A stretch of 64,000 nucleotides of DNA, from the NCBI GenBank assembly GCA_945876865.1, contig CAMCPZ010000003.1, forward strand, positions 1-64,000, given 5' to 3'. Positions within the stretch are counted from its first letter, which is position 1. Each line of letters starts with the position of its first letter. Made by a program: the position numbers and the translations under genes. Origin of the DNA: Bifidobacterium breve. Its GTDB lineage: Bacteria > Actinomycetota > Actinomycetes > Nanopelagicales > Nanopelagicaceae. Positions 3,167 to 9,648 of the stretch are shown here, in pieces. A model generated the notes under the pieces. The model saw only the letters and a program-made list of their open reading frames with translations. It was not told the origin of the DNA and did no database searches.

Positions 3167-3913
3167 ATGACAAAGAAATTGATTTTGCTGCGACATGGCG
3201 AGAGCGAATGGAACGCCCTAAATTTATTTACTGGTTGGGTTGATGTTCGCCTATCCGAAAAGGGAATTGGTGAAGCTAAACGCGGTGGTCAATTACTTAA
3301 AGAACGTGGCTTGTTGCCCGATGTTCTTCATACCTCGTTGCTACGTCGCGCGATTCATACTTCACAACTTGCACTAGATGAAGCCGATCGCCATTGGATT
3401 CCGGTAAATCGCAGCTGGCGTTTGAACGAACGTCATTACGGCGCACTTCAGGGCAAGGATAAAAAAGAGACTCTGGCGCAATATGGCGAAGAGCAATTTC
3501 AATTATGGCGTCGCTCTTTCGATGTTCCACCACCACCAATTGAAGATAACGATAAGTATTCGCAATTTAGCGATGCGCGCTATGCCGACTTAGGTGCAAG
3601 TTTGCCAAAGACCGAATGTCTTAAAGATGTTGTTGGTCGCATGATTCCTTATTTCAACGGTGAATTAAAAGCCGATTTGAATTCCGGGAAAACTGTTCTG
3701 GTAACAGCGCATGGAAATTCAATTCGCGCATTGGTCAAACACATTGACGGTATTTCTGATGCTGATATCGCTGGCGTAAATATCCCGACCGGTATTCCAC
3801 TTCTTTACGAGTTCAATGACCAGTTTGAGCCAGTTAAAAAAGGTGGCGAGTATTTAGATCCAGATGCGGCGAAAGCAGCGATTGAAGCAGTTGCGAATCA
3901 GGGCAAGAAGTAG
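3167..3913 (+). CDS. gpmA: 2,3-bisphosphoglycerate-dependent phosphoglycerate mutase
   Basis: [58 protein letters not shown]. Confidence 0.95.
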
Positions 3914-3932: not shown

Positions 3933-3972
3933 TTTAACCTTAGGTTCAGCAACATTTAACCCTTAGAACCTG
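3933..3972 (+). promoter_or_regulatory. PHO-box-like direct repeat (11-bp period) upstream of the glycosyltransferase operon
   Basis: TTTAACC-ttag-GTTCAGC-aaca-TTTAACC-ctta-GAACCTG: four 7-mers starting at 3933/3944/3955/3966. Confidence 0.6.
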
Positions 3973-3994
3973 CTGTGGATTGCTTTAAACCTCA

Positions 3995-4000
3995 TATTGT
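3995..4000 (+). promoter_or_regulatory. Candidate -10 element (TATTGT), 5 nt before ATG 4006 (leaderless)
   Basis: TATTGT-TACCC-ATG; no Shine-Dalgarno. Confidence 0.5.
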
Positions 4001-4005
4001 TACCC

Positions 4006-5145
4006 ATGAAGGTAGCAATAGTTACAGAATCATTCTTGCCACAGATTAATGGCGTAACTAATTCAGTCCTTCGCATCCTTGAAAGTCTTGGCACTGCTGG
4101 CCACGAAGCTTTGGTGATCGTTCCGGAGAGCACCGGAACTCCGAAGGAATATGCCGGTCATAAGGTCAAAACAATTCCTGCCCTTCCAATTCAAAGCGTA
4201 ATTCCAATTGGATTACCAATTGGATTACCTAATCGCAGACTTGAACATTTAATTGATGGATTCTCTCCAGACTTGCTTCACTTAGCATCGCCAATGCTTC
4301 TTGGAATGCATGCTGCGAAAGTCGCTAAAAAATTAAACATCCCCACGCTCTCGGTTTATCAAACAGATATGGCCGGCTTTGCCAGTCACTATGGTTTCGA
4401 TATTGCACATAGTTCACTTAGAAAATTAGTTGGAAAGATTCATTCACAGACTGATCGGACTTTGGCGCCATCGAAATCGGCTTGTATCGAATTAACATCG
4501 CTAGGTGTCCCAGAAGTTTATCTGTGGCAACGTGGTGTCAACAACGAATTATTCAATCCAAAGGCGCGAAGCGAAGCACTTCGTAAATATTGGGACCCCA
4601 CAGGTAAGCGGACAATCATTGGCTATGTTGGAAGATTGGCGAAAGAGAAGCGAATTAGTGATCTTAGATATTTAGATCGAGATCCAAGTAATTTACTGAT
4701 TATCACTGGAGCTGGACCGGCTCGAGAAAAATTAAAGAGAGATTTACCAAATGCAATTTTTATGGGGCATAAGAATGGCGGCGATCTAGCTGAAATCTTT
4801 GCTAGCTTAGATTTATTTATTCACCCAGGCCCAAATGAAACATTCTGCCAGGCAGTGCAAGAGGCACTTTCTTCGGGAACTCCTTGCATCGTCCCAAGGA
4901 CTGGCGGACCTGCAGACTTAGTGAGACATGGCAAGACAGGTTATGTAATAAATATTCATCGACCAGACGAACTTGAATCAACGGTTTTGCATTTCAAATT
5001 ACGCAACGACCAAGTAAATATGGCACTTCAAGCTCGTCAATCTGTATTGAACCGAACTTGGGCAACAATAAATGCACAACTCATCAATCACTATGAAGAA
5101 ATTCTGATCCGCCACAGAGACTATGTAGATGGGAGCGTCGCATGA
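4006..5145 (+). CDS. GT4 glycosyltransferase, MgtA/SqdX-like (GDP-mannose- or sugar-nucleotide-dependent lipid glycosyltransferase)
   Basis: MKVAIVTESFLPQINGVTNSVLRILE N-terminus, WQRGVNNELFNP, GYVGRLAKEK, HPGPNETFCQAVQEALSSGTP. Confidence 0.8.
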   Translation: MKVAIVTESFLPQINGVTNSVLRILESLGTAGHEALVIVPESTGTPKEYAGHKVKTIPALPIQSVIPIGLPIGLPNRRLEHLIDGFSPDLLHLASPMLLGMHAAKVAKKLNIPTLSVYQTDMAGFASHYGFDIAHSSLRKLVGKIHSQTDRTLAPSKSACIELTSLGVPEVYLWQRGVNNELFNPKARSEALRKYWDPTGKRTIIGYVGRLAKEKRISDLRYLDRDPSNLLIITGAGPAREKLKRDLPNAIFMGHKNGGDLAEIFASLDLFIHPGPNETFCQAVQEALSSGTPCIVPRTGGPADLVRHGKTGYVINIHRPDELESTVLHFKLRNDQVNMALQARQSVLNRTWATINAQLINHYEEILIRHRDYVDGSVA

Positions 5146-6296
5146 GAATTGTGCATGTAGCTAATTTTTATGGTCCAAACTCTGGCGGTATAAAAACCAC
5201 CATGCACGAACTAGGTCGTGGGTATCTGGCCCAAGGCCACGAATTTATCTACATTGTGCCAGGTACTCGGCTATTTACCGAGGAGACAATCTTCGGCAAG
5301 AAAATAACGGTTCCCAGCATTATTTTGCCCGGCAGTTGTGGCTATCAACTAATTCGAAACAATCGTGCGTTAGTGAAATTAATTGCAAGGCTAAAACCGG
5401 ATCGGATCGAAGTTTCAGATCGCTTTACCTTGCATTGCCTAGGGCGTTGGGCAAAGCGGAACAGCATCCCATCTGTTGCATTTAGCCACGAAACGCTTGA
5501 GGGCTTGGCCAAACGGTTCCTACCCCTTCCAGGGCTAGTTCGCAGAACCTTAGTTAGTTTTCACAATAAGAAGTTTGCGCGAAATTTTAATCAGATAATT
5601 ACAACAACTAATTTTGCAGCTCGAGAATTTATCGCCTTAAAGACCAAAAATTTGATAAAGGTGCCATTGGGTGTGGATTTAAAGGTATTCAATCCCAACA
5701 AAAGGTCAGAAGAGTTGCGAACTGAATTATTAAAGGGCTCTGAAATTTTGCTAGTCCACTGCGGCCGGCTATCTAAAGAGAAAGAGCCACAGCGAAGTGT
5801 TGAGGCGTTGATTGAACTTCGCTCGCGAGGAATTGATGCCAGATTGGTTATCGTCGGCATGGGTCCAATGTGGAGAGAAATTCGCACTTTAGCCAAAGGA
5901 CATCCGATAGACACTTTGGGATATATTGTGGATCGAAATAAAATCGCTGCAATTCTGGCAAGTGCTGATGTTTCACTTGCTCCCGGGCCTTTAGAGACCT
6001 TCTGCCTGGCCGCACTCGAATCTTTAGCATCTGGCACACCAGTTGTTACTTCAAATTCAAATGCGGTTGGTGAATTTCTAATTCAAGGGCTAAAAGACCC
6101 AGCCGGTGCAACCGCGCACGATAATTATGGCTCAATTGCTGATGCGATAGAAAGAGTTATCCGTAAAGAAAAAATAAGGCTACGTGCACGGGAAGTTGCC
6201 GAAGAGATGACTTGGGATAACACCGTCAGTCGGATGTTAGAGATCCATGGGATACAGAAAGTTCATAACTCTTTAGATTTACCGAAGGCAAGTTAA
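5142..6296 (+). CDS. GT4 family glycosyltransferase
   Basis: ATGA overlap with preceding GT; VHCGRLSKEKEPQRSVEAL, APGPLETFCLAALESLASGTPVV. Confidence 0.8.
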   Translation: MRIVHVANFYGPNSGGIKTTMHELGRGYLAQGHEFIYIVPGTRLFTEETIFGKKITVPSIILPGSCGYQLIRNNRALVKLIARLKPDRIEVSDRFTLHCLGRWAKRNSIPSVAFSHETLEGLAKRFLPLPGLVRRTLVSFHNKKFARNFNQIITTTNFAAREFIALKTKNLIKVPLGVDLKVFNPNKRSEELRTELLKGSEILLVHCGRLSKEKEPQRSVEALIELRSRGIDARLVIVGMGPMWREIRTLAKGHPIDTLGYIVDRNKIAAILASADVSLAPGPLETFCLAALESLASGTPVVTSNSNAVGEFLIQGLKDPAGATAHDNYGSIADAIERVIRKEKIRLRAREVAEEMTWDNTVSRMLEIHGIQKVHNSLDLPKAS

Positions 6297-7097
6297 ATGA
6301 GCACCGTACAGGTTGCGCCAAATCTAACCTTTGCGGTAATCGGAGACAGTGCGGCATTTGGAACTGGAGATGAAGCTCCAGATGGAACCTTTAGAGGCTG
6401 GGCTTTTTATTTGGCAAAGAGTTTTCGCGACGAATGTAATTATGTAAATTTTGCCAGGCCGGGTGCAAAATCAGATGAAGTTTCTGGAGTTCAACTAAGT
6501 AGCGCCAAGGCGTATTCACCAGATATATGTGCTGTAGTTGCTGGCGGCAATGACTTACTTCGAAATGGATTTAGTCCATACAAATTGCATCAGAATCTCT
6601 TACGCACATGTAAAGAACTGATGGAACAAGGCAGCGAAGTAATAATGGTTGAACTGCACGACCCCAATCAATTGCTGAAGATTCCTAATTTAATCAAGCG
6701 TATTTTGCGTAAACGGGTAGAGGCAGTAAATGCGGTATATCGAAAAATTGCTGACGAGCTTGAAATTGTCCTTATAAAGACTCGCGAAATTCCTGATGTT
6801 CATAACCTGCGAAATTGGCATATTGATCGGATGCATCCAGGAGAGCGAGGTCATAAAATTCTGGCACGTGAAGTGGCCATTCAACTCCAAAAGCGTGGCT
6901 GGTCTCTAACAATTCCCGAGACGGGGGAAGTGTTTAGCAAGGAAAAATCTCTGCAAATGAAGTGGCTAATTGCTAATGGAGTTCCTTGGTTTTTAAAACG
7001 AAGTGTGGATTTACTTCCAGTAGTTCTAGTTTTAGCAGTGATCGAAATCTTTAAAATATTAAATGAAAAACTTAATTACTTGAAAATTCTCCGGTGA
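6297..7097 (+). CDS. SGNH/GDSL hydrolase with hydrophobic C-terminal tail
   Basis: IGDSAAFGTGDE block I, AGGNDLLR block III, DRMHPGERGH block V; C-terminal LLPVVLVLAVIEIFKIL. Confidence 0.8.
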   Translation: MSTVQVAPNLTFAVIGDSAAFGTGDEAPDGTFRGWAFYLAKSFRDECNYVNFARPGAKSDEVSGVQLSSAKAYSPDICAVVAGGNDLLRNGFSPYKLHQNLLRTCKELMEQGSEVIMVELHDPNQLLKIPNLIKRILRKRVEAVNAVYRKIADELEIVLIKTREIPDVHNLRNWHIDRMHPGERGHKILAREVAIQLQKRGWSLTIPETGEVFSKEKSLQMKWLIANGVPWFLKRSVDLLPVVLVLAVIEIFKILNEKLNYLKILR

Positions 7098-7719
7098 CCA
7101 AGAAATAAACTCGGCGCGATATCGAAACAGCGTGGTCTGCAAAGCGCTCATAGAAACGACCAAGAAGTGTCATGTCAATTGCAGTTTCAATTCCGTGTGG
7201 CCAATTGTCTGAGAGCAAAATCGCGATTAATTCTCTGTGCAGCTTATCCATCTCATCATCATCAGTTTCAAGTTCAAGAGCACGCGCTGCATCTCGATGT
7301 TCCATTACTGATGAGAGCTTGTCGACTAATTTATCTGCAACTAATCCCATTGCTGTAATCGTTGGGACTAACTCAGCTGGAACTGCACTATTTGGGTAAC
7401 GCATGCGGGCCTGTTTAGCAACGTGATGCGCAAGGTCGCCCATGCGCTCGAGGTCAGCGCTCATTCGAAGTGAAGAAACTAGTGTTCGGAGATCCGATGC
7501 AACTGGTTGTTGGCGCGCCATCAGATTAATTGTTCGGGCATCTAGGTCATGCTGAATTTCATCAATAACATCATCGGCGGCAATAACTTTCTCCGCCAGT
7601 CCCAAGTCAACAGTAAGGAGGGCTGTTGTCGCTTCGCTCATCGCAACTCTGGCAAGGCCTGCCATTTGAAGCAGGCTGGTCCCAATTGAATCTAATTCGT
7701 CATGAAAGGCATTGCGCAT
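7072..7719 (-). CDS. phoU: Phosphate signalling complex protein PhoU
   Basis: MRNAFHDELDSIGTSLLQMAGLARVAM..., two PhoU repeats with RMGDLAHHVAK and ERFADHAVSISRRV; start taken as internal ATG (track ORF begins at GTG 7749). Confidence 0.9.
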   Translation of the reverse strand: MRNAFHDELDSIGTSLLQMAGLARVAMSEATTALLTVDLGLAEKVIAADDVIDEIQHDLDARTINLMARQQPVASDLRTLVSSLRMSADLERMGDLAHHVAKQARMRYPNSAVPAELVPTITAMGLVADKLVDKLSSVMEHRDAARALELETDDDEMDKLHRELIAILLSDNWPHGIETAIDMTLLGRFYERFADHAVSISRRVYFLVTGEFSSN

Positions 7720-7731: not shown

Positions 7732-7761
7732 GTCTGCTCTACCTTTCACGCGAGGTAAGTA

Positions 7762-7790
7762 TGTGAACGCGCCTTGAACTAAAGGTTAAG
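7762..7790 (-). promoter_or_regulatory. PHO-box-like direct repeat upstream of phoU
   Basis: Minus strand CTTAACC-ttta-GTTCAAG-gcgc-GTTCACA: three 7-mers with exact 11-bp period. Confidence 0.65.
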
Positions 7791-7861: not shown

Positions 7862-8971
7862 ATGTCATGGCTAGCTAGGAGAAAAACTAACGACTTTGAG
7901 GGAGATATTCCTTTAGAGAAATCTGAGATTCTGCCTAGCGCAATTAATGACTTACTAAAGTTGTTTGATGCTGAAAATATCATTGTTGGCAACGGCGACT
8001 TAGTACTTGAACATTCTGCCGGCATTTCAACGTTAAATATTATTCGTGATGAACACATAAATAATGAGTTCTTGCTTCGACTTGTTCGCGCTACTCGTAG
8101 ATCCGGAAATTCTCAAGAAGTCACAATGGAGCTGCCGCGTGGGCCAATTGGCGCTGGAACTCATGATCTTCTAGTTCGCGTTTCACTTCTAGGCAGTGAT
8201 GGACTTGTTGTAATTTTGATCTTTGATGACAGTGAAATGCGCAGATTAGATGCAATTCGTCGAGATTTCGTAGCAAACATTTCGCACGAGTTAAAAACTC
8301 CAATCGGCGCCCTTTCGATTTTGAGTGAAGCAGTTCTTGGTGCTAGTGATGATCCTGAAGCTATTACAAGATTTGCTACCCGAATGCAGACCGAGGCATC
8401 GAGACTTTCAGAATTGGTCCAAGAGATCATAAACTTATCAAGGCTTCAAGATGATGATCCACTTAAGCGGGCACAACCAATTTCGATAAGTGAAGCAATC
8501 AAAGAGGCGATTGATCAATCAAGGTTGAATGCCGAGGCTAGAAAAGTTGAAATTGTTTATAACAATAATAATTCTTCGATTGTAAATGGCGATCGCGAGC
8601 AGATAACAATGGCGATTCATAATCTTGTTGAGAATGCGATTAATTACAGTCCTGATGGAACCAGAGTTGCGATAGGAGTAAATGAAGCCGATGGAATTTG
8701 TGAAATCTCAGTTTCAGATCAAGGAATCGGAATTCCTGAAAAAGATTTAGAACGAATCTTTGAACGTTTCTATCGGGTTGATGCTGCGCGCTCTCGAATT
8801 ACCGGTGGAACCGGTCTGGGACTTTCAATCGTAAAACATGTTGTCACTAATCACGGTGGCGATATTTCAGTATGGAGCGTTGAAGGTGCCGGAAGCACTT
8901 TTACGATTCGATTACCGCTTATAAATGATACAAACAATCTCTCAAACACTGCCGTGGAGGCAACCAAATGA
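7862..8971 (+). CDS. senX3: SenX3-like sensor histidine kinase lacking N-terminal transmembrane segments
   Basis: RRDFVANISHELKTPIGALSILSEAVLGASDD (H-box), NLVENAINYSPDG, GTGLGLSIVKHVV; adjacent to regX3; in-frame TAG two codons upstream of ATG. Confidence 0.88.
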   Translation: MSWLARRKTNDFEGDIPLEKSEILPSAINDLLKLFDAENIIVGNGDLVLEHSAGISTLNIIRDEHINNEFLLRLVRATRRSGNSQEVTMELPRGPIGAGTHDLLVRVSLLGSDGLVVILIFDDSEMRRLDAIRRDFVANISHELKTPIGALSILSEAVLGASDDPEAITRFATRMQTEASRLSELVQEIINLSRLQDDDPLKRAQPISISEAIKEAIDQSRLNAEARKVEIVYNNNNSSIVNGDREQITMAIHNLVENAINYSPDGTRVAIGVNEADGICEISVSDQGIGIPEKDLERIFERFYRVDAARSRITGGTGLGLSIVKHVVTNHGGDISVWSVEGAGSTFTIRLPLINDTNNLSNTAVEATK

Positions 8972-9648
8972 CGAAAATTTTAGTGGTCGAAGATGAAGCT
9001 TCATTCTCCGATGCCCTGGCATATCTGCTTGGCAAAGAGGGCTTCGAGGTAATTGTTGCTGACACCGGTCCAGGGGCAATCGAACAATTTGATCGTCATG
9101 GTGCAGATTTAGTTCTTCTGGATTTAATGCTTCCAGGATTATCCGGAACTGAAGTATGCCGTCAACTTCGGACTCGCTCCAATGTTCCAATCATTATGCT
9201 AACTGCGAAAGATGCTGAAGTAGATAAGGTTGTTGGGCTTGAATTAGGCGCCGATGATTATGTAACAAAGCCATATTCATCTCGTGAATTAATCGCCAGA
9301 GTGCGGGCAGTTCTTCGCCGCCAAGGTGATGAAGATTCAGTAGTAGATGGGATTCTTGAGGCTGGCCCAGTGCGCATGGATGTTGAGAGACATAAAGTAA
9401 GTATCAATGGCAGCGATGCCGCATTCCCACTCAAAGAATTTGAATTACTTGAATTTCTTGTGCGAAATTCTGGTCGAGTTCTTACCCGCTCGCAATTAAT
9501 TGATCGAGTTTGGGGAAGCGATTACTTTGGCGATACCAAGACTTTAGATGTCCATATCAAACGGTTGCGTGCAAAAATTGAAGTAGATCCGGCAAATCCG
9601 GTATTTATCCAGACTGTGCGTGGACTTGGATATAAGTTCGAAAACTAG
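8968..9648 (+). CDS. regX3: RegX3-like OmpR-family response regulator
   Basis: MTKILVVEDEASFSDALAYLLGKEGF, LLDLMLPGLSG, winged-helix C-terminus DVHIKRLRAKIE...VRGLGYKFE. Confidence 0.92.
   Translation: MTKILVVEDEASFSDALAYLLGKEGFEVIVADTGPGAIEQFDRHGADLVLLDLMLPGLSGTEVCRQLRTRSNVPIIMLTAKDAEVDKVVGLELGADDYVTKPYSSRELIARVRAVLRRQGDEDSVVDGILEAGPVRMDVERHKVSINGSDAAFPLKEFELLEFLVRNSGRVLTRSQLIDRVWGSDYFGDTKTLDVHIKRLRAKIEVDPANPVFIQTVRGLGYKFEN

Follow-up and report, generated by a model that had tools for sequence, protein, structure and literature searches.

A conserved PHO-box-like promoter element before a GT4-GT4-SGNH operon of lake Actinomycetota, a candidate phosphate-responsive glycolipid unit

An operon for two GT4 glycosyltransferases (GT1 and GT2) and an SGNH hydrolase carries a PHO-box-like element about 72 bases before its first start codon; both the element and its offset are conserved, and its grammar is common to the pst and phoU promoters of the same genome, as can be read from the sequences themselves. 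Phosphate-responsive control of the operon is, on this evidence, very probable. The best overall reading, which we hold to be rather likely, is that RegX3 activates the operon, that its two glycosyltransferases make a phosphorus-free glycolipid based on glucuronate, and that the hydrolase recycles phospholipid. The parts of the trio are ordinary, and it is their arrangement that is informative. Searches of the open-access literature returned no description of the trio or of a PHO box on it, and nothing on lake actinobacterial lipids was found in the literature on lake actinobacteria and Nanopelagicales.

The operon lies in a 64-kb window, the whole stretch of DNA that was analysed, which is part of a 1.25-Mb draft genome. 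The features considered are as follows.

3167-3913: gpm, upstream neighbour of the operon
3933-3961, plus strand: PHO-box-like element, TTTAACC ttag GTTCAGC aaca TTTAACC, three 7-bp units with 4-bp spacers
3966-3972, plus strand: GAACCTG, claimed as a fourth repeat; lacks conservation and is probably no unit
3993-3998, plus strand: CATATT, -10-like hexamer with invariant A and T columns, its last base 8 nt upstream of the ATG
4006-5145, plus strand: GT1, GT4 glycosyltransferase, putatively MgtA-type (Pfam, profile; E278/E286)
5142-6296, plus strand: GT2, second GT4 glycosyltransferase, probably PimC-like (Pfam; E285/E293)
6297-7097, plus strand: SGNH/GDSL hydrolase (Pfam)
7072-7719, minus strand: phoU, convergent with the operon
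7762-7790, minus strand: PHO-box-like element of phoU, CTTAACC ttta GTTCAAG gcgc GTTCACA, 71 bp before the phoU ATG
7862-8971, plus strand: senX3-type sensor histidine kinase (domain models)
8968-9648, plus strand: regX3-type response regulator, presumed activator (domain models)

The three operon genes stand on one strand between gpm and the convergent phoU, whose 3' part overlaps the operon end on the opposite strand. The tight coupling claimed in an earlier, sequence-only reading is borne out by the coordinates: the GT1 and GT2 reading frames overlap by 4 bases, and the SGNH gene abuts GT2 directly. For phoU itself, the ATG at 7719-7717 is probably the start, being likelier than the listed GTG at 7749 and in agreement with relatives and with the PhoU model.

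The box begins 73 bp before the GT1 ATG. Its units start at 3933 (TTTAACC), 3944 (GTTCAGC) and 3955 (TTTAACC), in a strict 11-bp period, and as a tandem array of GTTCACC-related 7-bp units with 4-bp spacers it has the form of an actinobacterial PHO box of the PhoP/RegX3 type. The 40-base string picked out in the sequence-only reading is present exactly at 3933-3972, and the 11-bp period holds for units one to three, but the supposed fourth, GAACCTG at 3966-3972, was rejected: its match to the unit is poor, and relatives do not conserve it. The TATTGT-N5-ATG noted there likewise exists, with TATTGT at 3995-4000, although the conserved hexamer is instead CATATT at 3993-3998. This hexamer, with its invariant A and T, and the unit cores are what stand out in 21 aligned GT1 promoters. 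Because it ends 8 bases upstream of the ATG, the hexamer suggests a leaderless mRNA for the operon.

A relaxed triple pattern has two matches in the window, at 3934-3961 (plus strand) and 7762-7789 (minus strand), against a chance expectation of 0.05, and none of 100 shuffles held two; since the pattern allows any base at one middle-unit site and is thus partly fitted to the GT1 box, these chance figures alone should not carry the case. The pst boxes are stronger than that of GT1, and a matrix trained on pstC promoters does not by itself single out the GT1 site in the window, where it ranks fourth on the plus strand (5.0 bits; best 8.5). It is conservation and position that make this putative PHO box convincing.

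Boxes in the genome as a whole were sought by pattern search. Exact agreement with a strict two-unit pattern is limited to the regions before pstC (two overlapping matches), pstS and a whiB-type gene, the repeats upstream of pstC and pstS being perfect; a scan of the genome allowing two mismatches showed no enrichment over a reversed control. Box offsets are nearly alike, at 72 bases for pstC (counted from the start of a triple to the GTG taken as the pstC start), 71 for phoU and 73 for GT1. In sharing its grammar with pstC, pstS and phoU, the GT1 promoter earns its earlier description as PHO-box-like. In the same genome (G000), a triple 11-bp repeat, TTTAACCCCGTTTTAACCCCGCTTTAACT, precedes the whiB-type gene (contig C39:7065-7093, minus strand; L068); this may mark a further target, whether of the same regulator or of a different one. 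A weak triple box, TTCACT AGAT GTTCACT TTTC GTTAATC (contig C5:43675-43702; L075), precedes an operon for a branched-chain-amino-acid/urea-type ABC transporter. Another weak match, C44:288, was rejected as a box, as it lies inside a coding gene.

Conservation within the family was scored with a matrix trained on pstC promoters only. These came from 30 family genomes, and clear sites were obtained in 27 of them; the third unit in these promoters often reads GTAACC. On the GT1 promoters of 42 family loci, the best match falls at -71/-72 in almost all. The mean score of these promoters is 1.5, compared with -14.2 (sd 6.2) in shuffled promoters, and 21 of the 42 score above the 99th percentile of the shuffles. 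Motif conservation upstream of GT orthologues, the check that the sequence-only reading had proposed, is thus what the scan finds.

GT1 was found in 55 of the 121 family genomes, many family genomes being without the operon, and the trio is kept together in all 30 family loci that were read. Several other family genera have it between fabD, fabH, fabF and etfBA-nifS-mnmA-ligA, with the box retained. Within the window's genus, the operon stands between gpm and phoU in some species only, others having gpm directly followed by phoU, and whether or not a family member has the operon, its phoU stands between gpm and senX3. Judged from these gene orders, the operon came to lie beside phoU-senX3-regX3 by a recent local insertion that left its promoter intact. 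The location between gpm1 and senX3-regX3, once read as meaningful, loses that meaning, the insertion being absent from many congeners: the operon moved beside its presumed regulator, and the neighbourhood is not evidence of function. Adjacency to regX3 was rejected as evidence, the gpm-phoU-senX3 order being independent of the operon.

GT1 promoters of several genera (e.g. L015, L018, L092) have an inverted repeat, CCTCAA-N7-TTGAGG, just after the third unit, which is absent from the window. At two loci (L088, L101) a second, opposite box upstream of GT1 serves a divergent GT28-like glycosyltransferase gene, possibly a further Pho-controlled lipid glycosyltransferase. A second, diverged copy of the trio, with GT1 about 52-54% identical, occurs on another contig of one genome (G060 contig C39; L098) and is either a real paralogue or contamination.

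Beyond the family, relatives of GT2 occur in 34 of 397 genomes of the phylum; a related-locus search with GT2 as query led to close lake genomes and no others. The complete trio, in order, is present in five Streptomyces-like genomes, and others have GT1-GT2. One genome of another class has the GT pair beside a regX3-senX3 pair, with a promoter that lacks a box at -72. Two genera have the trio divergent from genes for a HAD-IB phosphatase and a glycerophosphodiesterase, an arrangement that fits phospholipid turnover. Promoters outside the family, one per genus from 18 genera, were examined with a generic unit model fixed before scoring. Their mean profile peaks at -72 and then at -83, -61 and -50, which is the 11-bp register. 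Not one of 20,000 circular permutations matched the -72 peak (p < 5e-5), nor did any of 5,000 sets of other promoters taken from neighbouring loci. The site at -72 ranks first to third in 13 of the 18 genera; five of the 18 show no box there.

Mycobacteriaceae-like genomes encode GT1 at the mgtA locus and GT2 at a separate locus, each with a box near -72. For the GT2 box, tested on 12 such promoters, 0 of 5,000 permutations matched the signal at -72, and p = 0.003 was obtained with four spread genomes; GT2 start codons were placed by a fixed rule near the conserved N-terminus, and two of the 12 promoters read -75, with an ATG three bases upstream. That unlinked GT1 and GT2 genes have the same box at the same offset is the strongest sign that the two enzymes may work jointly under phosphate control.

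Both glycosyltransferases have GT4 domains by Pfam, and E278/E286 of the EX7E motif in GT1 and E285/E293 in GT2 are invariant in alignments. A profile search finds one strong GT1 match per Mycobacteriaceae-like genome, between an rv0556-like gene and menG; mgtA of M. tuberculosis likewise lies between rv0556 and menG. By profile and synteny, GT1 is best called MgtA-type, in the same family as Rv0557 of M. tuberculosis and NCgl0452 of C. glutamicum, but GT1 here, a predicted enzyme, differs in sharing an operon with GT2 and the SGNH hydrolase. The earlier label of MgtA/SqdX-like thus keeps its first half, on the strength of the profile and the mgtA locus, whereas SqdX found no specific support. 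Neither GT nor the SGNH hydrolase passes a curated NCBIfam model, and no SqdX model is among the GT matches; the best for both GTs is N-acetylglucosaminyl-phosphatidylglycerol synthase, at about 140-150 bits versus a cut-off of 480. GT2 is probably PimC-like, with PimC (RvD2-ORF1) as its tentative counterpart, and has single standalone orthologues in Mycobacteriaceae-like genomes (e.g. L176). PimC has been assigned to PIM synthesis and is dispensable in BCG, whereas GT2 here is tied to MgtA and a PHO box. The AlphaFold2 model of GT2 is poor (mean pLDDT 42, shallow alignment). One genome has a gene for UDP-glucose 6-dehydrogenase, the source of UDP-glucuronate, immediately after mgtA and behind the box. 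All 18 family genomes checked encode nucleotide-sugar dehydrogenase domains, the window's genome only as a fragment at a contig end. No PHO box was found before the UDP-glucose dehydrogenase genes of cassette-bearing relatives at five loci with located starts.

What the two enzymes make is the point on which the most serious alternative turns. A Pho-regulated GT1 and GT2 could be mannosyltransferases for phosphatidylinositol mannosides (PIMs) or a lipomannan anchor, so that envelope lipoglycans would be altered and phospholipid not replaced. The nearest characterised relatives entered the literature as PimB and PimC, with PIMs as their substrates, and a lipomannan pool is supplied by MgtA (PMC3229680; PMC6016242); the weak PDB sequence matches of the GTs include PimA, PimB' and MshA. 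PIMs, however, contain phosphorus, so inducing them in starvation would save none, and the coupling of one mgtA to UDP-glucose dehydrogenase also speaks against this role. MgtA makes ManGlcAGroAc2 in C. glutamicum, of which Rv0557 is capable too; inactivation of pimC in BCG left PIMs unchanged, and Rv0557 was reassigned to a glycolipid based on glucuronate (GlcA) (PMC3229680). We regard the mannosyltransferase alternative as unlikely.

Expression of udgA and mgtA in M. tuberculosis depends on RegX3 and is repressed through PhoY proteins, according to a 2017 study that left open whether RegX3 acts directly on mgtA (PMC5513712); a pstA1 mutant has mgtA raised about 14-fold (PMC6016242). Glucuronosyl-diacylglycerols (GlcA-DAG) rise about 4100-fold in phosphate-free culture of the same species, and the 2025 lipidome study reporting this named their biosynthetic enzymes as still to be identified (PMC12722247). 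The RegX3 control put forward in the sequence-only reading accordingly draws on box grammar, conservation and the published RegX3 dependence of mgtA (PMC5513712, PMC6016242), but no longer on a fourth repeat or on location. Like the PHO box of Streptomyces PhoP and mycobacterial RegX3 (GTTCACC-N4-GTTCACC), the boxes here are direct repeats of 7-bp units with 4-bp spacers, found also before pst; they differ in a third unit that is often GTAACC-like, a fixed offset of about -72 and a probable leaderless start. The consensus used for comparison was that of PMC4832192, in which M. tuberculosis PhoP strictly requires direct repeats of 7-bp motifs with a 4-bp spacer. The units also overlap sequences bound by other OmpR-type regulators, which bind 11-bp-spaced direct repeats as well (M. 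tuberculosis PhoP needing 7+4; PMC4832192), and the frequent GTAACC unit deviates from GTTCACC. The repeats might then bind MtrA, GlnR or a PhoPR-type PhoP, with the operon answering nitrogen or envelope stress. Yet the same grammar, GTAACC third unit included, precedes pstC family-wide, and precedes phoU, and measurements in M. tuberculosis show mgtA to depend on RegX3 (PMC5513712); another regulator is in our judgement improbable.

The predicted product of the third gene is an intact SGNH hydrolase. It passes the Pfam cut-offs of PF13472 and PF00657, and S18, G56, N85, D177 and H180, which are all the SGNH catalytic residues (GDS serine, Gly, Asn and Asp-x-x-His blocks), are invariant. The C-terminus has a conserved WF-KRS-DL-P signature and a hydrophobic helix; no obvious signal peptide was found in the protein, and its AlphaFold2 model is poor (mean pLDDT 58, shallow alignment). 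Since SGNH enzymes are generally known to act often on glycans, GT4 acceptors are diverse and neither GT passes a curated family model, the GTs might make a soluble or secreted glycoside or glycan in place of a membrane lipid, with the hydrolase editing its acyl or acetyl groups. Around the operon, however, the loci read showed no gene recognisable as one for a polymerase, flippase or exporter, and several genera have genes of fatty-acid synthesis on its flanks; with the MgtA precedent as well, we consider this alternative very improbable.

In the RegX3-glycolipid reading, scarce phosphate would make SenX3-RegX3, relieved by Pst/PhoU, an activator. We infer that RegX3 would bind the three head-to-tail 7-bp units, which end about 44 bp before the start codon, and switch on a leaderless GT1-GT2-SGNH mRNA, and likewise pstC and phoU. 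GT2 and GT1 would make a phosphorus-free glycolipid on diacylglycerol, the donors, the acceptor and the order of the two GTs being presumed; that the product is a glycolipid of some kind seems likely. Glucuronosyl-diacylglycerol extended by mannose, the MgtA type of product, would be the leading candidate, the case for a glucuronate-based lipid being nearly balanced and tilting slightly against. The SGNH enzyme, probably a cytoplasmic protein anchored through its C-terminal helix, would deacylate phospholipids or lysolipids, making their phosphate recyclable; this role as a phospholipid recycler is proposed tentatively and may well prove wrong. In this way the operon would remodel lipids.

Comparable systems are known. 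In Agt/PlcP remodelling of Alphaproteobacteria, including SAR11, a Pho-controlled glycosyltransferase similarly makes a phosphorus-free glycolipid, possibly with a lipid hydrolase; there the partner is the PlcP phosphoesterase, whereas the trio has an SGNH hydrolase, and the GTs are likened by function, not subfamily. The Streptomyces sco0921-20 ornithine-lipid operon is a case of PhoP-controlled phosphorus-free lipid synthesis in an actinobacterium (PMC7937720), but its acyltransferases make an aminolipid, and the trio is a candidate for a glycolipid.

A wider proposal, which we regard as doubtful, is that MgtA-type and PimC-like GTs, linked or not, form a core Pho-regulon pathway of Actinomycetota with fixed promoter geometry, and would be the makers of the glucuronate-based phosphorus-free lipids of starved actinobacteria including M. 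tuberculosis, with the SGNH hydrolase as a phospholipid-recycling arm. That a box at -72 is so deeply conserved before both GTs speaks for direct control and points to two candidate enzymes for starvation lipids. The operon also hints at a way in which abundant, streamlined actinobacteria of lakes might save phosphorus, which matters for freshwater nutrient cycling.
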